From a virus, in IMG/VR virus record IMGVR_UViG_3300039159_000118, positions 1 to 35,814 of that record: a stretch of DNA of 35,814 nt; one strand, 5' to 3'. The position numbers were made by a program, and so were the translations under genes. This document shows, one piece after another, positions 1 to 35,814 of the stretch (positions are counted from its first letter, which is position 1; every line of letters begins with the position of its first letter). Under the pieces are notes generated by a model. That model made no database searches and was not told the DNA's origin. It saw only the letters and a list, made by a program, of their open reading frames with translations.

Positions 1-249
1 AGGTCCAGCTACGACGCTATCCGCTCCTGCCGGTCCTACCGCTCCTGCCGGTCCAGCAGGGCCGGTAGGTCCCGTAGGTCCAGCTACGACGCTTGCGGCT
101 CCGGTGTTGCCGATAGGCCCTTGTGGTCCCGTAGGGCCGGTAGGTCCCGTAGGTCCAGCTACGACGCTATCCGCTCCTGCCGGTCCTACCGCTCCTGCCG
201 GTCCAGCAGGGCCGGTAGGTCCCGTAGGTCCAGCTACGACGCTTGCGGC
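1..249. repeat. 150-bp direct repeat inside the collagen-like gene
   Basis: Positions 1-99 are repeated without change at 151-249, a period of 150 bp or exactly 50 codons, so the unit keeps the reading frame. The unit holds smaller GGNCC-rich repeats. This looks like recent in-frame duplication, and it can also stop an assembler, which may be why the contig ends here. Confidence 0.9.
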
Positions 250-444
250 GCCTTGCGGCCCGTCCAAGCCCTGCGGACCCATAGGCCCCCGTGGTCCTGG
301 TACGGTGCTCGCAGCGCCCGAAGGCCCCGCAGGTCCGGTAGGGCCGGTTACAACGCTCGTCGGCCCTCGTGGTCCTTGCGGCCCCGTCGCGCCTTGCTGC
401 CCGTCATCTCCTTTAGGCCCGCGAGGGCCTGTGAAGTCTGCCAC
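1..444 (-). CDS. Collagen-like repeat protein, probable fibre or appendage (N-terminal part; cut by window edge)
   Basis: The minus strand is open from a GTG at 444 to position 1, 148 codons with no stop, so the C terminus is outside the window. After a short start (ADFT) the protein is almost all Gly-X-Y triplets ([18 protein letters not shown]), broken at intervals by short links such as SVV and STV. Such triplets form collagen-like triple helices and are common in phage tail fibres and adhesins. It starts 22 nt after the terminase stop, in the same direction as all other genes. The GTG is the only start that follows the in-frame TAA just upstream and keeps the full repeat; there is no Shine-Dalgarno (SD) sequence. 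The repeat makes the plus strand read as Gly-Pro-rich too, but that frame has no fitting neighbours. The role as a fibre is inferred from composition and place. Confidence 0.7.
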
Positions 445-8879: not shown

Positions 8880-9345
8880 GGCGTAGGGTGACGGGGGTGT
8901 AGAGTGCGGCGTTGTGCTCGAAAGCATCGCCAAGAGTGAAGCCAACTGCCTTGCACCATTCAACGTGCAGCTTGTTGCCGAGCCACACATGGTTGTAGAG
9001 CGTGCCGTACTTCGCCGCCCACTCAGGGAGCAGCGTGTCGCGGCTGTATTCGATCAGGAAGCGAATGTGGCGCATCGAGAGGCCCTGGCACGCCATCAGC
9101 CAGGGAGACGCCATCTCTTCGGGATGGAAGAAGTTCGTAGCGATGCCGCCGATAGCTACCGCAAAGCCGTAGTCATCGCACAGCACGAAGCACTCCGTCG
9201 ATGCCTCGAACGCGAAGATGACGCCCTCACGCGGTTCCTTCCCGCCGAGCATGACTTCCACGCTGTCAGCGAAGCGGAGCCGATCTGCAACTTCCTTCGC
9301 GTCGTTGAGACACGCCGGTCGAATGTGAGGGGTGCTAGTACGCAC
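8863..9345 (-). CDS. Internal virion protein A (T7 gp13-like, GNAT-type fold)
   Basis: The 160 residues match the gp13 type in order: an N-terminal part with CLNDAKEVADRLRFADSVEV, a core with GFAVAIGGIATNFFH, a helix RHIRFLIEYSRDTLLPEW, and near the end YNHVWLGNKLHVEWCKAVGF. T7 gp13 carries the equivalent YNYVWVGNTSHIRFLK segment. Such proteins look like degenerate acetyltransferases and act in virion assembly. The most credible start is GTG at 9345, overlapping the end of the preceding gene by 11 nt; a longer frame up to 9510 lies wholly within that gene in another frame. There is no SD, so coupling is likely. Confidence 0.75.
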   Translation of the reverse strand: MRTSTPHIRPACLNDAKEVADRLRFADSVEVMLGGKEPREGVIFAFEASTECFVLCDDYGFAVAIGGIATNFFHPEEMASPWLMACQGLSMRHIRFLIEYSRDTLLPEWAAKYGTLYNHVWLGNKLHVEWCKAVGFTLGDAFEHNAALYTPVTLRHVRTS

Positions 9346-9874
9346 GGGTCTGCGGAGAGAAGGTGAAAGAGCACTCGCCGCCCGTGAGACGCAGCGGGAA
9401 GTGTTGGCGGGAGATGGCAGTGAGCACAGAGGTCGGCGCGTTGTGCAGCACCGAGCAGCGAGCTTCGCTGATCTGCGGTTCAGGCTTGCCGTCGAAGTTG
9501 CGAGATTCAAGAGGCCGCTTAAAGCGGGCGATTGTAACCAGGAGCTTCGAGTCTGCGTCGATGTGGAAGACGTACTCCCGCACAGTCGCGGGGCCGCGCC
9601 GATCGGTGATGTTGAAGTCGCGCCTGACGACGACAGGGGGAGACAGCTTCACGCTTGAGACGAAAGGCAGGCCAACGTACACAGCGCCGGTCTGTGGGAT
9701 GCCGACAGCCACACGGTCAAGCGCGGGCCGAGTGGAGTTGATGCGAGCGCCGGTCACGGCATTCACGACGTACAGCGGAATGTTGACCGGCAGGTTGTAG
9801 GGAAGGGTCCACGATGATACGCCCCCCGGCGAGGGGCTGAAGTACACGCGGCGGTCCAGGAAGGGGGGCTTCAT
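9335..9874 (-). CDS. C-terminal piece of tail tubular protein B (gp12), separate frame
   Basis: The 179-residue product begins MKPPFLDRRVYFSPSPGG, then WTLPYNLP, and later VYVGLPFVSSVKLSPP. LDRR, WTLPY and VYVGLPF are all typical of the last quarter of gp12-type nozzle proteins, not of a separate protein family. The preceding 894-residue frame ends LNRVSLERQPYN with TAG 4 nt before this ATG, just where a one-piece gp12 would continue into LDRR. The two frames differ by +1. Options are a real split gene with reinitiation, programmed +1 frameshifting, or a sequencing or assembly error. That this is the gp12 C-terminal domain is my reading of these motifs. Confidence 0.75.
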   Translation of the reverse strand: MKPPFLDRRVYFSPSPGGVSSWTLPYNLPVNIPLYVVNAVTGARINSTRPALDRVAVGIPQTGAVYVGLPFVSSVKLSPPVVVRRDFNITDRRGPATVREYVFHIDADSKLLVTIARFKRPLESRNFDGKPEPQISEARCSVLHNAPTSVLTAISRQHFPLRLTGGECSFTFSPQTRAY

Positions 9875-9878
9875 GTGG

Positions 9879-12563
9879 CTAGTTGTAAGGTTGGCGTTCG
9901 AGGGAGACGCGATTCAGAGACACACTGCTGTCGGGGTGCAAGAGCACAACGCCAAGCGTCTCCTGAAGCACGTCGATGGACTTCACACGATCAGGGAAAA
10001 TCCACTTACACCATGCGGCCTGTGCGAGATCGCCATTCGCGGCCTCTGCGTAGGCGAAGAGGTAGACTGCTGTACCCGAGTCGGTCAGCAGGAAGATGCG
10101 CCGGAGGTTCGGAGCCGCCGCGAGCTTCAGAGGATTGCCGACGAGGTAGCCAGGAATCTTCAGCGTCAGCAGTTCAGCGAGAGCGGGCTGATTCGCGTCT
10201 CTCACGCGCAGCATTGAGACGTGTGTGACGCCCTCGTTGCCCGAAGCGAAGAAGAGAAAGTCACCGCTCGCTACCGGCTCACAGTTGCGCGAGCATGGCT
10301 GTGCCGTCACGCGCTTCAGGTACGCCGATGTTGGCGTCAGCGCCGGATTACCTTCGAGCACATGGATACCGTTGTCACTCGCGAGGTACAGCAGGCCACG
10401 AATCGTGACGGCTGCGCTGAAGTACGCGATCTCCGGCAACGAACTCTGCAAGTCCACCACGTCTGAATCAAGCAGCGCGACAGCGGACACCTTAAAGAAG
10501 TTGCCGTAGCTGTCGGCCTCTGAGCAGATAACACGATCCTCGCTGAGAATGCCAAGTCGGTTCTGCCACACGAATACGCCCGCGACACGCCGGTCAGTGA
10601 ACGAGGGGAACGGCACAGTGATGTCGTCGCCCGCGCCTCGTGGTGCCCACTTGTTCGGCCCGAACACGAAGTAGTCGCCGGTCTGAAATATCGCGATGTC
10701 ATCCGTCGTCAGCGCCGTAGAGCGGGCAGCGCCCCCGAGCACGGCCACAAAATACGGTGCGAGGTAGGCCGTGATGGTTCCGAACGCGCCGGTCGTGAGG
10801 TTGACGAGCTTCCTACCGACGAACGTGCTGAGGTCCGCTCCCCCTGGATTGCTGACGCGAACGTGATTCAGGGGCATCTCTCCGACGACGGTTACCTGCG
10901 GCGTGAGCGACGTTATACGCAGTTGCCCGTTGCCGAGGATGCCGTCGAGCAGGCTGAGGCCCCCCTGACCGTCCACCGCTGTCGCGAAGGCTGTCACCAG
11001 TGCGGTGCCTGTCATCGCTGAGAGGCTTGTGTACGTCCCAAGCAGGACCGGCGTGACGGGGCTCCGGCTTCGCACGGTGATGGTGTAGCCAGCGGGGTAC
11101 ACGACGGTCGGTTCGAGCACCATCAGCGTACTGCCCTCGCCTTCGATCTCGATGTCCGTCACAGTGAAGCTCACCGTCCTCAAGAACGCGGCCTGCTCTC
11201 CCCCTGGTAGCCCGCTGTCTGTGAGGGCGAACAGCCGCACAACGAAGCCGGGAGCGACGGGACGAGCACCAAAGGAACTGAGAGGTATCTCGATGACTTC
11301 AGAGAGGCTAGCGCCTGCGGGCACGCGAACAGACGTGACGAGTTCGCCTCGATACTTGAAGGCGTAGTCACAGGTGAGGTCCAACCACGGGCGAGCCGTC
11401 ATCGTCTCAATGTTGAGCGTGACGCGACACCTGATCGAACGGGGGTTCGGTGAGACTACTCCCACAGGAATCGTTGCGCCCCTTCCATCTACGTTGACGA
11501 TAGAGCCGAACGGAAACGGGGAGCCTACGATGTCGGGAGAGGCGACGATGCCCTGCCCATCGAGGTACACTAACTGCGGAGCCGAGAGCGCGTCAATGTC
11601 TTCGAGCGTCGGGCCGTTGCGCCGGAGGATGTGCGGCATGGTCGCGGGGTTCAGATCAAGCAGGGTTCCCGGCTTCGGGCACTCCCGCCACAGTCCGTTG
11701 CCTGCGTCCGCATTATCCGCAGAGAAGACGACGTAGTAGTCATCCTTCACGGTGCCTGCATCTCCGGCCACCTTCACGACCATTCCCTCGACAGCGCGGA
11801 AAGGCAAGTCCTCGAACCGCTGTACCTGCGACTTGACGACACGCAGCCCGCGATCCGCTACGCCATCACTGACAGCGACCTTAAAGTCCTCTCCGGTCTT
11901 CTTCGTGAGGTAGATGCTAGAGCCGATGACGCGGGCGTTGAACGAGAAGCCGAGCTTCGTATCAATGAGGCCCGCGAGTGCTCGTGCCGACAGGTCCGTC
12001 TTAATGCCTTCGAGAGCGGACGTTGAACCCGCAGGCGTGTCGTACACGACATCCGTTCCATCGAGCGTCAGCGTGTACTTCGTGCTGTAGTCCGTCTGAC
12101 GAAAGTAGACGATGGCTTCAGGGGCACGGGAAGGCGACAGGCGAGCGCCCTTCCGCACAATCTTGTTGCGGTTCGTGATGAAGGTGACATCGCCTGCGGT
12201 GACAGCGCGAAAGCCATCAGCAGCCGTGAGGTAAGCGTCGGCCCCCGGCTGCATGACGACAGTACGCTCAGCGCCCGTGTCGTTGTCGTACACCTTCAGC
12301 AATCCGTTCGCCACGATGACGCGATACTCTTCGACGCCATCACGGTTGACTGCATGGTTGAGCACAGCGTCGTTGTCGCCCACTGCCAAGCCACCGAGTA
12401 CCGCGATGTGGTCGGACGAAGAACGACGCAGCAGGCCGAGCGTTGCGTCCGGCATGAAGTTGTCGCACTCGTTGACTTGAGCACGATCTCGATACTCAGC
12501 AGCTTCCCGCGTGACCCCGCCAATGAGCGGGGGTTGCGGTTGGGAGATAGGGCGACTCGCCAC
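9879..12563 (-). CDS. Tail tubular protein B / nozzle (T7 gp12-like), main part
   Basis: The 894 residues form a beta-rich protein starting ASRPISQPQPPLIGGVTRE, typical of gp12, which forms the hexameric nozzle at the tail tip through which DNA leaves. Other gp12 signs are PFPSFTDRRVAGVFVWQNRL and GILSEDRVICSEADSYGNFF in the last third (about 660-700), and YLKRVTAQPCSRNCEPV. T7 gp12 is 794 residues; here 894 plus the 179 encoded downstream makes a larger total. The start is GTG directly after the TAA of the gp11-like gene, with no spacer. A central region (about 460-580) is additional beta-rich sequence that I cannot assign. Confidence 0.85.
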   Translation of the reverse strand: MASRPISQPQPPLIGGVTREAAEYRDRAQVNECDNFMPDATLGLLRRSSSDHIAVLGGLAVGDNDAVLNHAVNRDGVEEYRVIVANGLLKVYDNDTGAERTVVMQPGADAYLTAADGFRAVTAGDVTFITNRNKIVRKGARLSPSRAPEAIVYFRQTDYSTKYTLTLDGTDVVYDTPAGSTSALEGIKTDLSARALAGLIDTKLGFSFNARVIGSSIYLTKKTGEDFKVAVSDGVADRGLRVVKSQVQRFEDLPFRAVEGMVVKVAGDAGTVKDDYYVVFSADNADAGNGLWRECPKPGTLLDLNPATMPHILRRNGPTLEDIDALSAPQLVYLDGQGIVASPDIVGSPFPFGSIVNVDGRGATIPVGVVSPNPRSIRCRVTLNIETMTARPWLDLTCDYAFKYRGELVTSVRVPAGASLSEVIEIPLSSFGARPVAPGFVVRLFALTDSGLPGGEQAAFLRTVSFTVTDIEIEGEGSTLMVLEPTVVYPAGYTITVRSRSPVTPVLLGTYTSLSAMTGTALVTAFATAVDGQGGLSLLDGILGNGQLRITSLTPQVTVVGEMPLNHVRVSNPGGADLSTFVGRKLVNLTTGAFGTITAYLAPYFVAVLGGAARSTALTTDDIAIFQTGDYFVFGPNKWAPRGAGDDITVPFPSFTDRRVAGVFVWQNRLGILSEDRVICSEADSYGNFFKVSAVALLDSDVVDLQSSLPEIAYFSAAVTIRGLLYLASDNGIHVLEGNPALTPTSAYLKRVTAQPCSRNCEPVASGDFLFFASGNEGVTHVSMLRVRDANQPALAELLTLKIPGYLVGNPLKLAAAPNLRRIFLLTDSGTAVYLFAYAEAANGDLAQAAWCKWIFPDRVKSIDVLQETLGVVLLHPDSSVSLNRVSLERQPYN

Positions 12564-14429
12564 TTAGCTAGTCCATCCAGTGTTGAGGTTGCGGGCGCGA
12601 GAGAGCGGAGCGTTCTCATACGCCTCGAATAGATTGTAGTGCTCCTGAATCCCGAACTGCGATTCAAGTTCGATCCACGCGTGCTGTTCGTCGCTCTGCT
12701 TGAACGACGTGAGTTCACCACTCCCCATCACTTCGCTCGCATACCGGCGAGCAGAGCGGATCGTGATGTAGTTCTTCGCGACTTCCGGCAAGTCCTCGAA
12801 CGGGATAAAGCGCGTAACGTCCATGTAGAGAACGGAGCGTCCCTCGAAGCCGTCCTCGCCGCCAACACGGTTCGCGAAGACTCGCGGCCTGATGCCAGAG
12901 GTGAGGAACGTACGCGCTCGCCGCATCGAGACATCCGGTGTGTTCGGTCCCGTCTGTCCCTCCCGCACAGTGGCGACAGCAGACGCGACGTTATCGGGCA
13001 CGATGAACACACTCCGCTCTACGCCGAGCGTGTCTGCCAGGAAGCCTTCAGGGAGGAACTTTACATTCCTGTCGTAGTTGAACTCCCACGGGCGCAATGC
13101 GAGTTCGCGGAGGCCCTGCTTCAGAATCTCAACTGCGGCCTTCCCATCAGCGGGAAGGTCTTCGAGGTTTTCGAGCGCCGACTCACCAACCGAGCGCATG
13201 ATCGAATTGACAGCATCGAGGAACGTCGCGCCCTGCACGTCACGAATGTTGACTTGCGGGGCAATCACCGTGAACGGGAGTGCAGAGATAGCCGTGCCGT
13301 TCGATGCTTCCACAACAATCTGCCCTGTGACTGCACCGGCAGGGACGTACAGTAGCAGCGAGGCGGCTGACGGGCGCGTGAACACGGCACCGACTCCACC
13401 GAGACTGACTGCGGCTACAGTGTCCGTGTACGCGAGTCCCACGACGATAGGCGTCCCTTCGATGCCGCTATCAGGACCGAAGCCGGTTATCGTCGGAACA
13501 GGGATCGTGAAGTCTGCGACAGATGTTGCCGTGCCGAGCGCACTGACGAGTGTGATGCGCCCCGATCCAGCGCCTACAGGAACCGTCACGATGACGTTGA
13601 GCGAGTCCGGCTGCACGAACGTCGCGGAGATACCGTTAATTGCTGCTGACGTAATCGTGCCGGTGTCTTCGATGCTGACGTTAATGGTGCTCGTGGGAAC
13701 GCCGAGCATCGGCGTGAAGCTCACGATTGTCGGGGGCTGAGTATCCGGCCCGCTTGCGACTGTGGGAGCGGGAAGGAATGAATTGTTCCCGAGCAACATT
13801 GAGACGCCAGAGGGCACAAAGTTCGCGATGGCGCCCACAGACGTAGCGCGGGGCTTCCATGCCGCGATGGGTTGCCGAGTCGCGAGGTTCAAGTCAGAGA
13901 CAACTTCCTGGCACTCAGTAGCCGTGAGCCGCCTATCCCAAACGCCGATGAAGGCGATGTCTGATTTGAAGGCCCCATTGCTAGGGGAGCGCCCGAGCAC
14001 GAACGGAAACGTGTTGTCAGCGCCGAGAAGCCCTGTGCCGCCAAACTCATCGCTGAGGGCCTGCTCAAGAATCGTCCCGTCCTTTACAGCAGTGAATCGC
14101 TTCGCGATGTTCGTTGCAGCGCGTGCGCTCGTGTTGAACACCCAACGCCAGAGCAGCGGTGTTGCGTTGTTAAGAGCCGGACCCCGCCACCGCTGTGATC
14201 CGACAGCAGATGGATAGAAGTCGTACCCCTCGCCTGTCGAGATGGCGCTGAACTTCTGACTGACACCCTTAGAGTAGATCGACTGATTCGTTCCGGGGAG
14301 TGCCCCGTCCCATCGCATGAGTACGCCGACAGTCCGTTCGGCCAAGTCGGCAATCAGCGCGTGCGCCGGAACTGTCCCGTTGTCGTCAGGGTTCCGAAGC
14401 TGGAGATGATGCGTGTAGTATGTCGGCAT
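12564..14429 (-). CDS. LamG + two IPT/TIG domains + tail tubular protein A (gp11) fusion
   Basis: This 621-residue protein has three parts. Residues 1-190 look like a LamG/concanavalin A-like domain, ending in the usual IGVWDRRLTATE motif (161-172). Residues 232-308 and 311-388 are two similar Ig-like IPT/TIG units: each opens with PTI..F.P, has a VPVGAGSGRI or VPAGAVTGQI turn and closes with F.I or F.V. Residues about 400-621 (FLDAVNSIMRSVGESALENL, later RELALRPWEFNYDRNVKF) are a complete gp11-type adaptor ring protein; T7 gp11 is only 196 residues. The adaptor ring joins portal to nozzle. LamG and IPT domains usually bind carbohydrates or surfaces, so this adaptor probably displays 12 copies of a binding arm round the neck. 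The ATG at 14429 follows a purine-rich AAGAGG immediately upstream. Confidence 0.88.
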   Translation of the reverse strand: MPTYYTHHLQLRNPDDNGTVPAHALIADLAERTVGVLMRWDGALPGTNQSIYSKGVSQKFSAISTGEGYDFYPSAVGSQRWRGPALNNATPLLWRWVFNTSARAATNIAKRFTAVKDGTILEQALSDEFGGTGLLGADNTFPFVLGRSPSNGAFKSDIAFIGVWDRRLTATECQEVVSDLNLATRQPIAAWKPRATSVGAIANFVPSGVSMLLGNNSFLPAPTVASGPDTQPPTIVSFTPMLGVPTSTINVSIEDTGTITSAAINGISATFVQPDSLNVIVTVPVGAGSGRITLVSALGTATSVADFTIPVPTITGFGPDSGIEGTPIVVGLAYTDTVAAVSLGGVGAVFTRPSAASLLLYVPAGAVTGQIVVEASNGTAISALPFTVIAPQVNIRDVQGATFLDAVNSIMRSVGESALENLEDLPADGKAAVEILKQGLRELALRPWEFNYDRNVKFLPEGFLADTLGVERSVFIVPDNVASAVATVREGQTGPNTPDVSMRRARTFLTSGIRPRVFANRVGGEDGFEGRSVLYMDVTRFIPFEDLPEVAKNYITIRSARRYASEVMGSGELTSFKQSDEQHAWIELESQFGIQEHYNLFEAYENAPLSRARNLNTGWTS

Positions 14430-14441
14430 CCTCTTACGGCC

Positions 14442-14669
14442 TTACTGTGCAGGCGGGACAGACGGCACGATGAGCTTTGTGCTGTTCGCCGCGATGAGCA
14501 CGCCGATGACAGACGCCGCCGTGTTGATGCCAACCTTCAGTCGCTCGTCATGCACCGGCAACACTTCAGCAACCTTCGCCGCCGTGCCGAGCAGAGAGAG
14601 CACCGTGCCGAGCAGGGCACCGATCTTGTACTTACCCGAGCGGATCGCTCGCCATGTTGCCGAAAGCAT
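14442..14669 (-). CDS. Small membrane protein with two hydrophobic segments (holin-like candidate)
   Basis: The 75-residue product (MLSATWRAIRSGKYKIG...) has two hydrophobic segments, about 17-36 (ALLGTVLSLLGTAAKVAEVL) and 49-62 (AASVIGVLIAANST), with a charged loop HDERLK between. An AGGA motif 6 nt before the ATG at 14669 supports this start over longer frames that run back into the terminator. It lies between the capsid terminator and the gp11-like gene. A two-TM protein of this size could be a class II holin, but T7 has no holin here; I keep the function open. Confidence 0.7.
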   Translation of the reverse strand: MLSATWRAIRSGKYKIGALLGTVLSLLGTAAKVAEVLPVHDERLKVGINTAASVIGVLIAANSTKLIVPSVPPAQ

Positions 14670-14853: not shown

Positions 14854-15807
14854 CTACGGACGGAACGTGCCTGCACCGATGTTGATTTCGACGGCGCAAT
14901 CAGAACGCAGGATGCCGTGACCGACAGCGTACTTGCCGACCATCAGTTCACCCTGGCGCTCGATCTGATACTCGCTCTCCATCGCGAGGTCCAGGAGCTT
15001 GACCGTACCAACAGCCATCGGAGTTGCGATGACAGCAAGCGTCTTCGAGAAATCCCCGTTGTACTTTGCGTACGGGGAAGCCGTGAAGTTTGTACGGGGC
15101 AGGTTGTTCGTCTTCACGATCTCGATGCCAGCGATGCGCTTGATGACGCCAGAGGCCACGGAGCCGTTGCCTTCCGGGTTGACATCGGTGTCGATGAAGG
15201 TGCCGTTGCCCGCAGCGACGAGCCAGTTGTACTCGCTCGGGCGAATGAACAGGCAGCGCGGGCCGGTGACATCCTTCTCGTCGAGGCGCTGAGCCGCGAG
15301 GAAGATAGCGTCACGGAAAGCCGTGATGTCTGTCCCTGCGGTCGTCGAAACGATCTGCGCTCCACCATTGCCGCCTGTAACAGCAGCACCGGCACGAGCC
15401 GCGTTAATCATCACGCGAGCGATGTTCGTATCCATCTGACGCGAGAGGGTCTGCCCCATCTCCTGCGACAGCACACTCCGGAAGTCGTAGTGATTCATCG
15501 CTTCGTCGATGTTCGCCAGGAAGCGGTCAGCCACGAGAAGGTCGTCGATCTCGATGGTGATTTCGTTCGCAGCGACCAGCGAGCCCGCGAGACGAGCGCC
15601 GGGGGTGTGGTAGCCCGCCGTGCCCTTCCACGCTGCCGGGAACTGCGCGGTGCGACCGCTGGCAATCGTGCGAGTCATCGTCTTCGCAAGGAACACGTTC
15701 GTCTCTGCGAACGCCGCCAGCACTTCACCAGCGAACACCTTCAGGAACAGAGCGCGTGCATCGCCCGCAAGGTTCGCCTGACCAATACGGGTAGGGTTGT
15801 TAGCCAT
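14854..15807 (-). CDS. Major capsid protein (T7 gp10-like)
   Basis: The 317-residue protein (T7 gp10A 345) has an HK97-type shell-protein composition and the gp10 landmarks: an N-arm MANNPTRIGQAN, LFLKVFAGEVLAAFAETN, a stretch ASGRTAQFPAAWKGTAGYHTPG and IDDLLVADRFLANIDEAMNHYD, then a C-terminal domain with LFIRPSEYNWL. It follows the scaffold gene and precedes a strong terminator. The start ATG at 15807 has a pyrimidine- and AT-rich leader with no SD, surprising for what should be the most highly expressed gene. A 10-bp hairpin stands 26 nt before the start. Confidence 0.93.
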   Translation of the reverse strand: MANNPTRIGQANLAGDARALFLKVFAGEVLAAFAETNVFLAKTMTRTIASGRTAQFPAAWKGTAGYHTPGARLAGSLVAANEITIEIDDLLVADRFLANIDEAMNHYDFRSVLSQEMGQTLSRQMDTNIARVMINAARAGAAVTGGNGGAQIVSTTAGTDITAFRDAIFLAAQRLDEKDVTGPRCLFIRPSEYNWLVAAGNGTFIDTDVNPEGNGSVASGVIKRIAGIEIVKTNNLPRTNFTASPYAKYNGDFSKTLAVIATPMAVGTVKLLDLAMESEYQIERQGELMVGKYAVGHGILRSDCAVEINIGAGTFRP

Positions 15808-15833
15808 GAAAATCTACAGAGTGGTGAGAGAGT

Positions 15834-15858
15834 GGCTAGCCGCCGAATGCGGCTAACC
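15834..15858 (-). promoter_or_regulatory. Hairpin in the leader of the capsid gene
   Basis: On the minus strand GGTTAGCCGC pairs with GCGGCTAGCC round a 5-nt loop. One pair is a G-U wobble on the minus strand but an A-C mismatch on the plus strand, which favours a minus-strand RNA structure. No T-run follows, so it is not a terminator; an RNase processing or mRNA-stabilising stem is possible. Confidence 0.6.
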
Positions 15859-15882
15859 GGGGGTACAACAGAGAATGCAGAC

Positions 15883-16683
15883 TTAGCGCCCGAAGACACC
15901 CTCGTCCGATACAGCCAAGCGGCCTGACACGACGGCGCGGAATGCGGAGTCGGTCTTGTACTTGCGCGACTGCATATCGTCGAGAATCTGCTGTCGGCTT
16001 TCGTAGGGCTTCGGCCCCGCGTCAGGGCGTGCGGGGGTGACGCTCTCTACGAGGGTAGGCTCGGTGCCCATCTTATCCGAGTAGGTTGCGAGGATGCCAC
16101 GCAAGGCGAGAGCCGCCAGTGCTGTGTCGCCGCTGTCGATAGCGGCATTGTACGCTTGCTTGTCGGCAGCGGTAAGGTTCGTCCCTTCACCGGCCCACTT
16201 CATCACCGCATCGAGCTTGTCAGAGCCTCCGGCGAGTGCGTTGAACTCCTGACGCAGCAAGGTCGAACGCGCCTTCTGTCCGTCGATGTAGGCGCTCACA
16301 TCGGCGCGAGTGATTCCGGCCTGCTCGAACGCTGCAAGACGATCTTCAGACAGCACGCCGTTCTCGGCGTACTCAGCCCGAAGTGCCGCCATGTCGAAGC
16401 CCTTCTCCGCAACGATCTTCTCCGCTGAATCCGCGTCAGGGGCAGGAGGCTTCGGTGCAGCGGGGGTATCTTCGACAGGCTTGGGTTCGGGAGCAGGGAC
16501 AGCGGGAGCAGTCGCAGGGGCTTCAGTGGTCGCGGCAGGAGGCGTCGGCGGCTCTGCGGCTGGAATGTCTGAACTCTGGACTACTACCCGCGTGCCCTTG
16601 CTCCCTACGGTTGACACAATGCCTTCGACCGGCTTCGCCGTATCAGCAGGCAAAGGCGCGGGAGGGGCAACAATGCGTGCCAC
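15883..16683 (-). CDS. Capsid assembly / scaffolding protein (T7 gp9-like)
   Basis: The 266-residue acidic, Pro- and Ala-rich protein lies directly before the capsid gene. It has a disordered N half (EPPTPPAATTEAPATAP), a helical middle (EKGFDMAALRAEYAENGVLS, then RLAAFEQAGITRADVSAYID) and a basic C-terminal end (SRQQILDDMQSRKYKTDS), the pattern of scaffolds, whose C terminus contacts the shell. A similar LAAFEQAGI..A.V..YI region is typical of phage capsid assembly proteins. Its start is GTG at 16683, 2 nt after the previous stop; no better start is available. Confidence 0.85.
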   Translation of the reverse strand: MARIVAPPAPLPADTAKPVEGIVSTVGSKGTRVVVQSSDIPAAEPPTPPAATTEAPATAPAVPAPEPKPVEDTPAAPKPPAPDADSAEKIVAEKGFDMAALRAEYAENGVLSEDRLAAFEQAGITRADVSAYIDGQKARSTLLRQEFNALAGGSDKLDAVMKWAGEGTNLTAADKQAYNAAIDSGDTALAALALRGILATYSDKMGTEPTLVESVTPARPDAGPKPYESRQQILDDMQSRKYKTDSAFRAVVSGRLAVSDEGVFGR

Positions 16684-35561: not shown

Positions 35562-35632
35562 GTGTAGCTATCTAGCGCCTCCCTTAGTGCGAGCCGAGAG
35601 GAAGCCTCTAGGTAGTCTGTAGGGATACGCAA

Positions 35633-35734
35633 GGGAGCGTGCGGGCTTCCAGTAGTGCGAGCCTCTAGGAAGCCCGTAGGGAGCCTGTAGGAAGCCTCTA
35701 GGGAGCGTGCGGGCTTCCAGTAGTGCGAGCCTCT
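35633..35734. repeat. 34-bp direct repeat
   Basis: Positions 35633-35666 recur unchanged at 35701-35734 (68-bp period), beginning GGGAGCGTGCGGGCTTCCAG. The DNA between is made of related AAGCC/GAGCCT units. Confidence 0.85.
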
Positions 35735-35735
35735 C

Positions 35736-35814
35736 GGAAGCCTCTCGGAAGCCTCTCGGAAGCCTGAAGGAAGCCTCTCGGAAGCCTGAAGGAAGCCTCT
35801 CGGAAGCCTGAAGG
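35736..35814. repeat. 11-bp tandem repeat array at the window edge
   Basis: Seven consecutive units GGAAGCCT plus CTC or GAA, and the start of an eighth, run to the last base; from the second unit on, CTC and GAA alternate. T7 has short tandem repeats next to its terminal redundancy, so this may mark the genome end; it may also be where assembly failed. Confidence 0.9.

Follow-up and report, generated by a model that had tools for sequence, protein, structure and literature searches.

A T7-like phage gene joining TIG-like and probable LamG-like domains to a gp11-type tail adaptor

The tail adaptor gene of an uncultured T7-like phage was found to encode one protein of 621 residues, in which a gp11-type adaptor is preceded by two tandem TIG-like domains and very probably by an N-terminal LamG-like domain. 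Judged by sequence, this would be a known adaptor joined to known binding-type domains, in a combination and at a place that were not found elsewhere. The window analysed was the whole of a linear IMG/VR virus record (IMGVR_UViG_3300039159_000118; 35,814 bases), which is incomplete at its left end. In addition to the genes listed below, the record encodes a T7-type RNA polymerase, DNA polymerase A, a helicase-primase and endonuclease I. Around the fusion gene the order is capsid, gp11, nozzle, flanked upstream by the portal and scaffold genes and followed by those for gp14, gp15, gp16 and terminase. The features referred to in the text are as follows.

12564..14429, minus strand: LamG-TIG-TIG-gp11 fusion gene, one ORF of 621 codons with its ATG at 14429
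13851..14429, minus strand: residues 1-193, probable LamG/pentraxin-like jelly roll (Laminin_G_3 and model)
13737..13850, minus strand: residues 194-231, linker without a domain match and with low pLDDT in both models
13503..13736, minus strand: residues 232-309, first IPT/TIG-like Ig domain of the tandem repeat
13254..13502, minus strand: residues 310-392, second IPT/TIG-like Ig domain
13230..13253, minus strand: residues 393-400, short junction containing GTG codon 398 (13238-13236)
12567..13229, minus strand: residues 401-621, gp11/tail tubular protein A adaptor (PF17212, PHROG 446, AF2 model)
14854..15807, minus strand: major capsid protein gene, upstream neighbour (PF21703, E 1.2e-63)
9879..12563, minus strand: N-terminal piece of nozzle gp12, 894 aa, the partner of gp11 (PF25675, E 4e-122; PHROG 457)
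9335..9874, minus strand: C-terminal piece of nozzle gp12, a 179-aa ORF (PHROG 457 positions 593-791)
1..444, minus strand: collagen-like Gly-X-Y ORF after the terminase gene, a probable fibre gene, cut by the record edge

Domains of the fusion protein

The C-terminal part was matched by the Pfam family PF17212 (E 9.9e-21, residues 404-589, 74.8 bits against a curated cut-off of 22.3) and by PHROG 446 (E 9.6e-26, residues 401-611). An AlphaFold (AF2) model of this part, generated using an alignment with 40 gp11 relatives, had a pLDDT mostly >90 over residues 401-590 and was superposed on the solved adaptors of P-SCSP1u (8i4m_G; VIA Z 17.6, rmsd 2.9 Å, 181 residues aligned) and T7 (7box_M; VIA Z 17.4). 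The gene is also sited between the major capsid and nozzle genes, the gene order of T7-type gp11 adaptors. The preliminary description had placed a gp11-type adaptor in the last third of the protein (about residues 400-621); Pfam, PHROGs, the model and the solved adaptors all agree with this, so that both the adaptor family and the adaptor fold were recovered by the profile and structure checks of that region. The domain boundaries proposed there were correct to within a few residues.

Two IPT/TIG units had likewise been proposed at residues 232-308 and 311-388, and these were borne out by a repeat comparison and by a profile search, each of which exceeded shuffled sequences. The two repeats were aligned without gaps over 77 residues with a score of 135, compared with 34.7 ± 6.3 for 2000 shuffles, a difference of 16 standard deviations. 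A viral TIG profile was constructed from proteins retrieved by a DNA pattern that was derived from the second unit. Against this profile the whole protein scored 70 bits (best of 1000 shuffles, 11.4), the first unit scored 39 bits although it does not fit the fetch pattern, and the second unit scored 48.7 bits, or 29.2 bits once the search motif was masked. The Pfam TIG family (PF01833) was detected in the second repeat only (14.8 bits, E 0.029), below its cut-off of 20.9, and neither repeat reached that cut-off, so the units are named TIG-like here. Across the 39 records searched, TIG matches at E up to 1 were obtained in three, one of them the window, and matches over the cut-off in none. 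AF2 predicted strands in this region with mostly low pLDDT from an alignment without homologues. At the level of sequence, the protein thus carries two tandem TIG-like domains.

Residues 1-193 have with high probability a LamG-type fold, and this is the least secure of the domain calls. The estimate is based on an independent Pfam lead, the strand order and a structural model. The Pfam lead is a match to Laminin_G_3 (PF13385; E 0.027, 15.1 bits) that covers residues 131-172 only and falls below the cut-off of 27.6. Phage LamG proteins fetched using the query's DIAFIGVWDRRL motif were aligned over the whole domain 1-193, and the end strand of the domain (PIAAWKP) lines up with the end strand of other phage LamG domains (PVGWWRMG). 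The model (m6597c71ccb1d) was built from an alignment of 35 phage LamG rows that is biased, having been gathered by the query's own motif, and had a pLDDT of 59.8, a pTM of 0.60 and core strands at pLDDT 70-87. Its best structural matches were the LamG domain of PAPP-A (VIA Z 13.1), followed by pentraxins and the sialic-acid-binding module CBM40, and its viral matches bear LamG or ConA-like annotations. For the N-terminus, AF2 with the single sequence as input gave a pLDDT of about 30, and phmmer searches of the N-terminal parts against the PDB returned no credible match.

A LamG profile hit of 33.9 bits was rejected as proof because it was driven by the fetch motif and dropped to shuffle level when that motif was masked. 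Residues 1-150 alone scored no better than shuffles on the LamG profile, and only 4.8 bits were obtained with a LamG profile made from T7-like relatives chosen independently of the motif. The LamG alignment A3 was too diverse for scanning and was left out, and a mixed LamG and TIG alignment was dropped because MAFFT aligned the TIG rows with the LamG region. The earlier assignment of a LamG-like domain to residues 1-190 is moderately supported: the model, biased as it is, and the sub-threshold Pfam lead speak for the fold, whereas the missed cut-off and the masked profile do not.

Integrity of the fusion and its occurrence among relatives

The frame is open throughout all 621 codons, as had been described, and constitutes one uninterrupted gene. 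GC content (0.60) and GC3 (0.68-0.73) are uniform over the three parts of the gene and similar to those of the neighbouring genes, and the junction contains neither a stop codon nor a good start codon. An assembly or sequencing error that fused a separate LamG-TIG gene to gp11 would account for a fusion seen in a single contig and absent from the other phages found, and the record also has its nozzle gene in two pieces, perhaps owing to a base error. Such a chimera is nevertheless judged very unlikely, given the constant GC and GC3 across the junction, the unbroken frame, the preserved capsid-gp11-nozzle order and the lack of a good second start. A different possibility is that initiation near codon 398 yields mostly plain gp11, with the fusion as a minor component at a few positions of a mixed ring. 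The GTG at codon 398 falls near the usual start of related gp11 proteins in the alignment, but the predicted anti-Shine-Dalgarno pairing there is -0.2 kcal/mol, compared with -5 to -10 kcal/mol for most GTG-started genes of this phage. Such pairing is also missing from several structural genes of this phage, those for capsid and portal among them, so plain gp11 may be made from an internal start beside the fusion. A ring composed mostly of plain gp11 is regarded as rather improbable; internal initiation could nonetheless leave a virion with fewer than 12 arms.

The rarity of the fusion was assessed in 209 gp11 ORFs from fetched IMG/VR loci, two of which were copies of the window and some of which came from contigs represented twice. 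The best 80 loci per scan were retained, so that rarity is a lower-bound statement on the loci examined. Within these loci, no N-terminal arm was seen on any of the other 207 ORFs, the gp11 domain starting at or before residue ~91 of the stop-to-stop frames. In INPHARED, 331 records matched gp11 and none covered 80% of the query; residues 1-391 gave no match at E 0.01 and only chance-level matches at E 10. Peptide patterns identified no close relatives of the full protein in IMG/VR or in GTDB genomes, and the same fusion was not found in a literature search that covered mostly openly accessible papers. The search of phage sequences for the same fusion, which the preliminary description had proposed, thus produced no second case in the IMG/VR loci or INPHARED. 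The solved adaptors of the T7 gp11/tail tubular A family (PF17212; 7box, 6r21 and 8i4m) resemble the C-terminal 220 residues in fold, at ~22-26% identity, but neither the known gp11 structures nor the 207 other ORFs have the 400-residue N-terminal module present here.

Fibre and nozzle genes and the proposed role of the arms

The T7-type fibre anchor PF03906 was not detected in the 35.8-kb record with its incomplete left end, and was over the cut-off in 21 of the 29 records searched. The fibre gene lay upstream of the terminase gene wherever both could be placed, some records being cut in circular order, and between gp16 and terminase the window has only a 136-aa ORF. The collagen-like ORF cut by the record edge starts directly with collagen-like repeats. 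Three relatives (G003, G014 and G015) are also without PF03906, and in each of them terminase is followed directly by a long fibre-like ORF; G014 and G015 are the top-ranking records in the terminase comparison and near the top in that of gp11. All three have a gp11 without the N-terminal arm, and in G003 the gp11 domain is doubled. Given the collagen-like edge ORF and the long fibre-like ORFs at the same place in relatives, the idea of a phage without any fibre was dropped; a fibre probably exists, and the arm more likely supplements it than takes its place.

Fibre-like ORFs after terminase were recorded at L411:13360-15090, L412:2-1249 and L413:1-3375, and share a short N-terminal motif (LLPSHPGEPY / NLPSHPGRPY) that is perhaps an anchor other than PF03906. 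The motif is absent from the collagen-like ORF of the window. Repeat arrays occur at both ends of the record (window 1-252 and 35577-35814), with 75-base units inside the collagen-like ORF at the left and 11- and 68-base units at the right; no repeats common to both ends were listed.

The nozzle gene is a single ORF of 1110-1309 aa in the relatives L086, L090, L091 and L112. In the window the 179-aa ORF, which holds the fibre-dock/platform end, lies in a different frame, with its ATG a few bases past the stop of the 894-aa piece. The split may be either a real fission or a base error. The nozzle also contains an insert of ~300 residues (~325-640; window ~10644-11588, minus strand) that is covered by 3-15 of ~110 relatives and has no Pfam match.

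The best reading overall, with slightly better than even confidence, is that the N-terminal domains form twelve neck-mounted auxiliary adhesion arms. The gp11 part would form the 12-fold ring that normally sits between portal and nozzle, and ring building should persist since this part is intact and confidently modelled. The LamG and two TIG domains would project outward at the head-tail joint as jointed arms. Each TIG pair would act as a spacer for a terminal LamG domain, which would recognise a glycan or some other ligand on a surface. Through many weak contacts of this kind the phage could attach to the envelope or capsule of its host, or to the matrix around it, either ahead of the fibres or alongside them; mucus is one of several conceivable targets, and nothing favours it over the host surface. 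We infer the outward projection, the 12 copies, the ligand binding and the adsorption role, the copy number from the T7 adaptor, which is a dodecamer that forms a 12-fold ring (PMC6702177). In T7, comparison of 6r21_M with 7box_M identified 35 residues ahead of the native gp11 start, and a HisTrap column was used to purify the portal-adaptor-nozzle complex (PMC6702177). T7 gp11 therefore tolerates an N-terminal extension in the assembled complex, and its N-terminus is probably reachable from the outside, which we infer from the sequence lengths and the column and which is not a claim of that paper.

The resemblance of the LamG model to pentraxins, the PAPP-A LamG domain and CBM40 favours an adhesion arm. 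The adhesion reading is weakened by the low LamG sequence support and by the use of the query's own motif to gather the model alignment. Purely structural roles are also known for LamG and TIG folds, and the arm was found in one contig only. The arm could instead fold along the capsid vertex or nozzle, where it would strengthen the head-tail joint or dock an unusual collagen-like fibre, its ligands being virion proteins rather than host glycans; this structural alternative is considered unlikely. In T7 the groove between adaptor and nozzle is the fibre dock (PMC6702177), and in the window the T7-type anchor found in most searched records is missing, the candidate fibre opens with collagen-like repeats, and the nozzle is also altered, by its split and its lineage-specific insert. 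However, LamG and pentraxin folds usually bind ligands, and G003, G014 and G015 combine fibre-like genes after terminase with armless gp11-type adaptors, so such fibres need no arms. It is very improbable that the arm serves as the chief receptor-binding device in place of the T7-type tail fibre: the missing anchor and the lone 136-aa ORF between gp16 and terminase, on the side of terminase where relatives carry the fibre gene, would fit, but the nearest relatives have their long fibre-like ORF right after terminase and the collagen-like ORF occupies the same place here. A 12-fold adaptor ring that carries out most of the receptor binding through twelve arms with LamG tips, in place of the missing T7-type fibres, is likewise given a very low probability.

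An adhesion role for the arms is plausible by analogy with several known systems. Lactococcal 936 phages have a neck passage structure with carbohydrate-binding modules, one of which binds the host (PMC6669499), so that binding modules sit at the phage neck, as proposed here. As described in that paper, the 936 structure is a separate siphophage neck protein, whereas the modules here are fused to a T7-like adaptor ring. Ig-like domains on gut phages give adhesion (PMC13370021), on other carrier proteins, with other Ig families and tested on epithelium. For the tail tubular protein A of Klebsiella phage KP32, a second, polysaccharide-directed activity was reported (PMC5440376); it is a gp11-family protein with an extra activity but without extra domains, whereas any extra role here would sit in the added domains. 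A natural 400-residue N-terminal fusion would show that the adaptor, a fixed 12-fold scaffold, can bear adhesion modules, and it would allow a direct test of whether phages supplement their binding with weak contacts at the neck.

LamG genes and gp11 variants in related loci

LamG modules were found as separate genes in eight T7-like relatives (L034, L041, L048, L050, L053, L056, L061 and L067; one or two genes each), mostly 230-270 bases upstream of the portal gene. As this module recurs there, it appears to be common stock in T7-like relatives. These stand-alone LamG proteins of T7-like marine phages (261-510 aa) are encoded in the structural region, as here, but by genes of their own rather than fused to gp11.

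Upstream of the fusion ATG in the window, a 75-aa ORF (14442-14669) and an intrinsic terminator, the latter judged by eye, were noted. Between the scaffold and capsid genes of L004, two ORFs (13152-14456 and 15586-16182) look by eye like SGNH-type hydrolases.

Some gp11 ORFs of relatives carry insertions within the gp11 domain, before the last strands and helices (L164:4335-5351, L046:10698-11507 and L112:3976-4887). Others consist of two gp11 domains in tandem (L012:14096-15376, 427 aa; L138:1515-2657, 381 aa), which might assemble into rings of doubled adaptors or into rings of only six copies.
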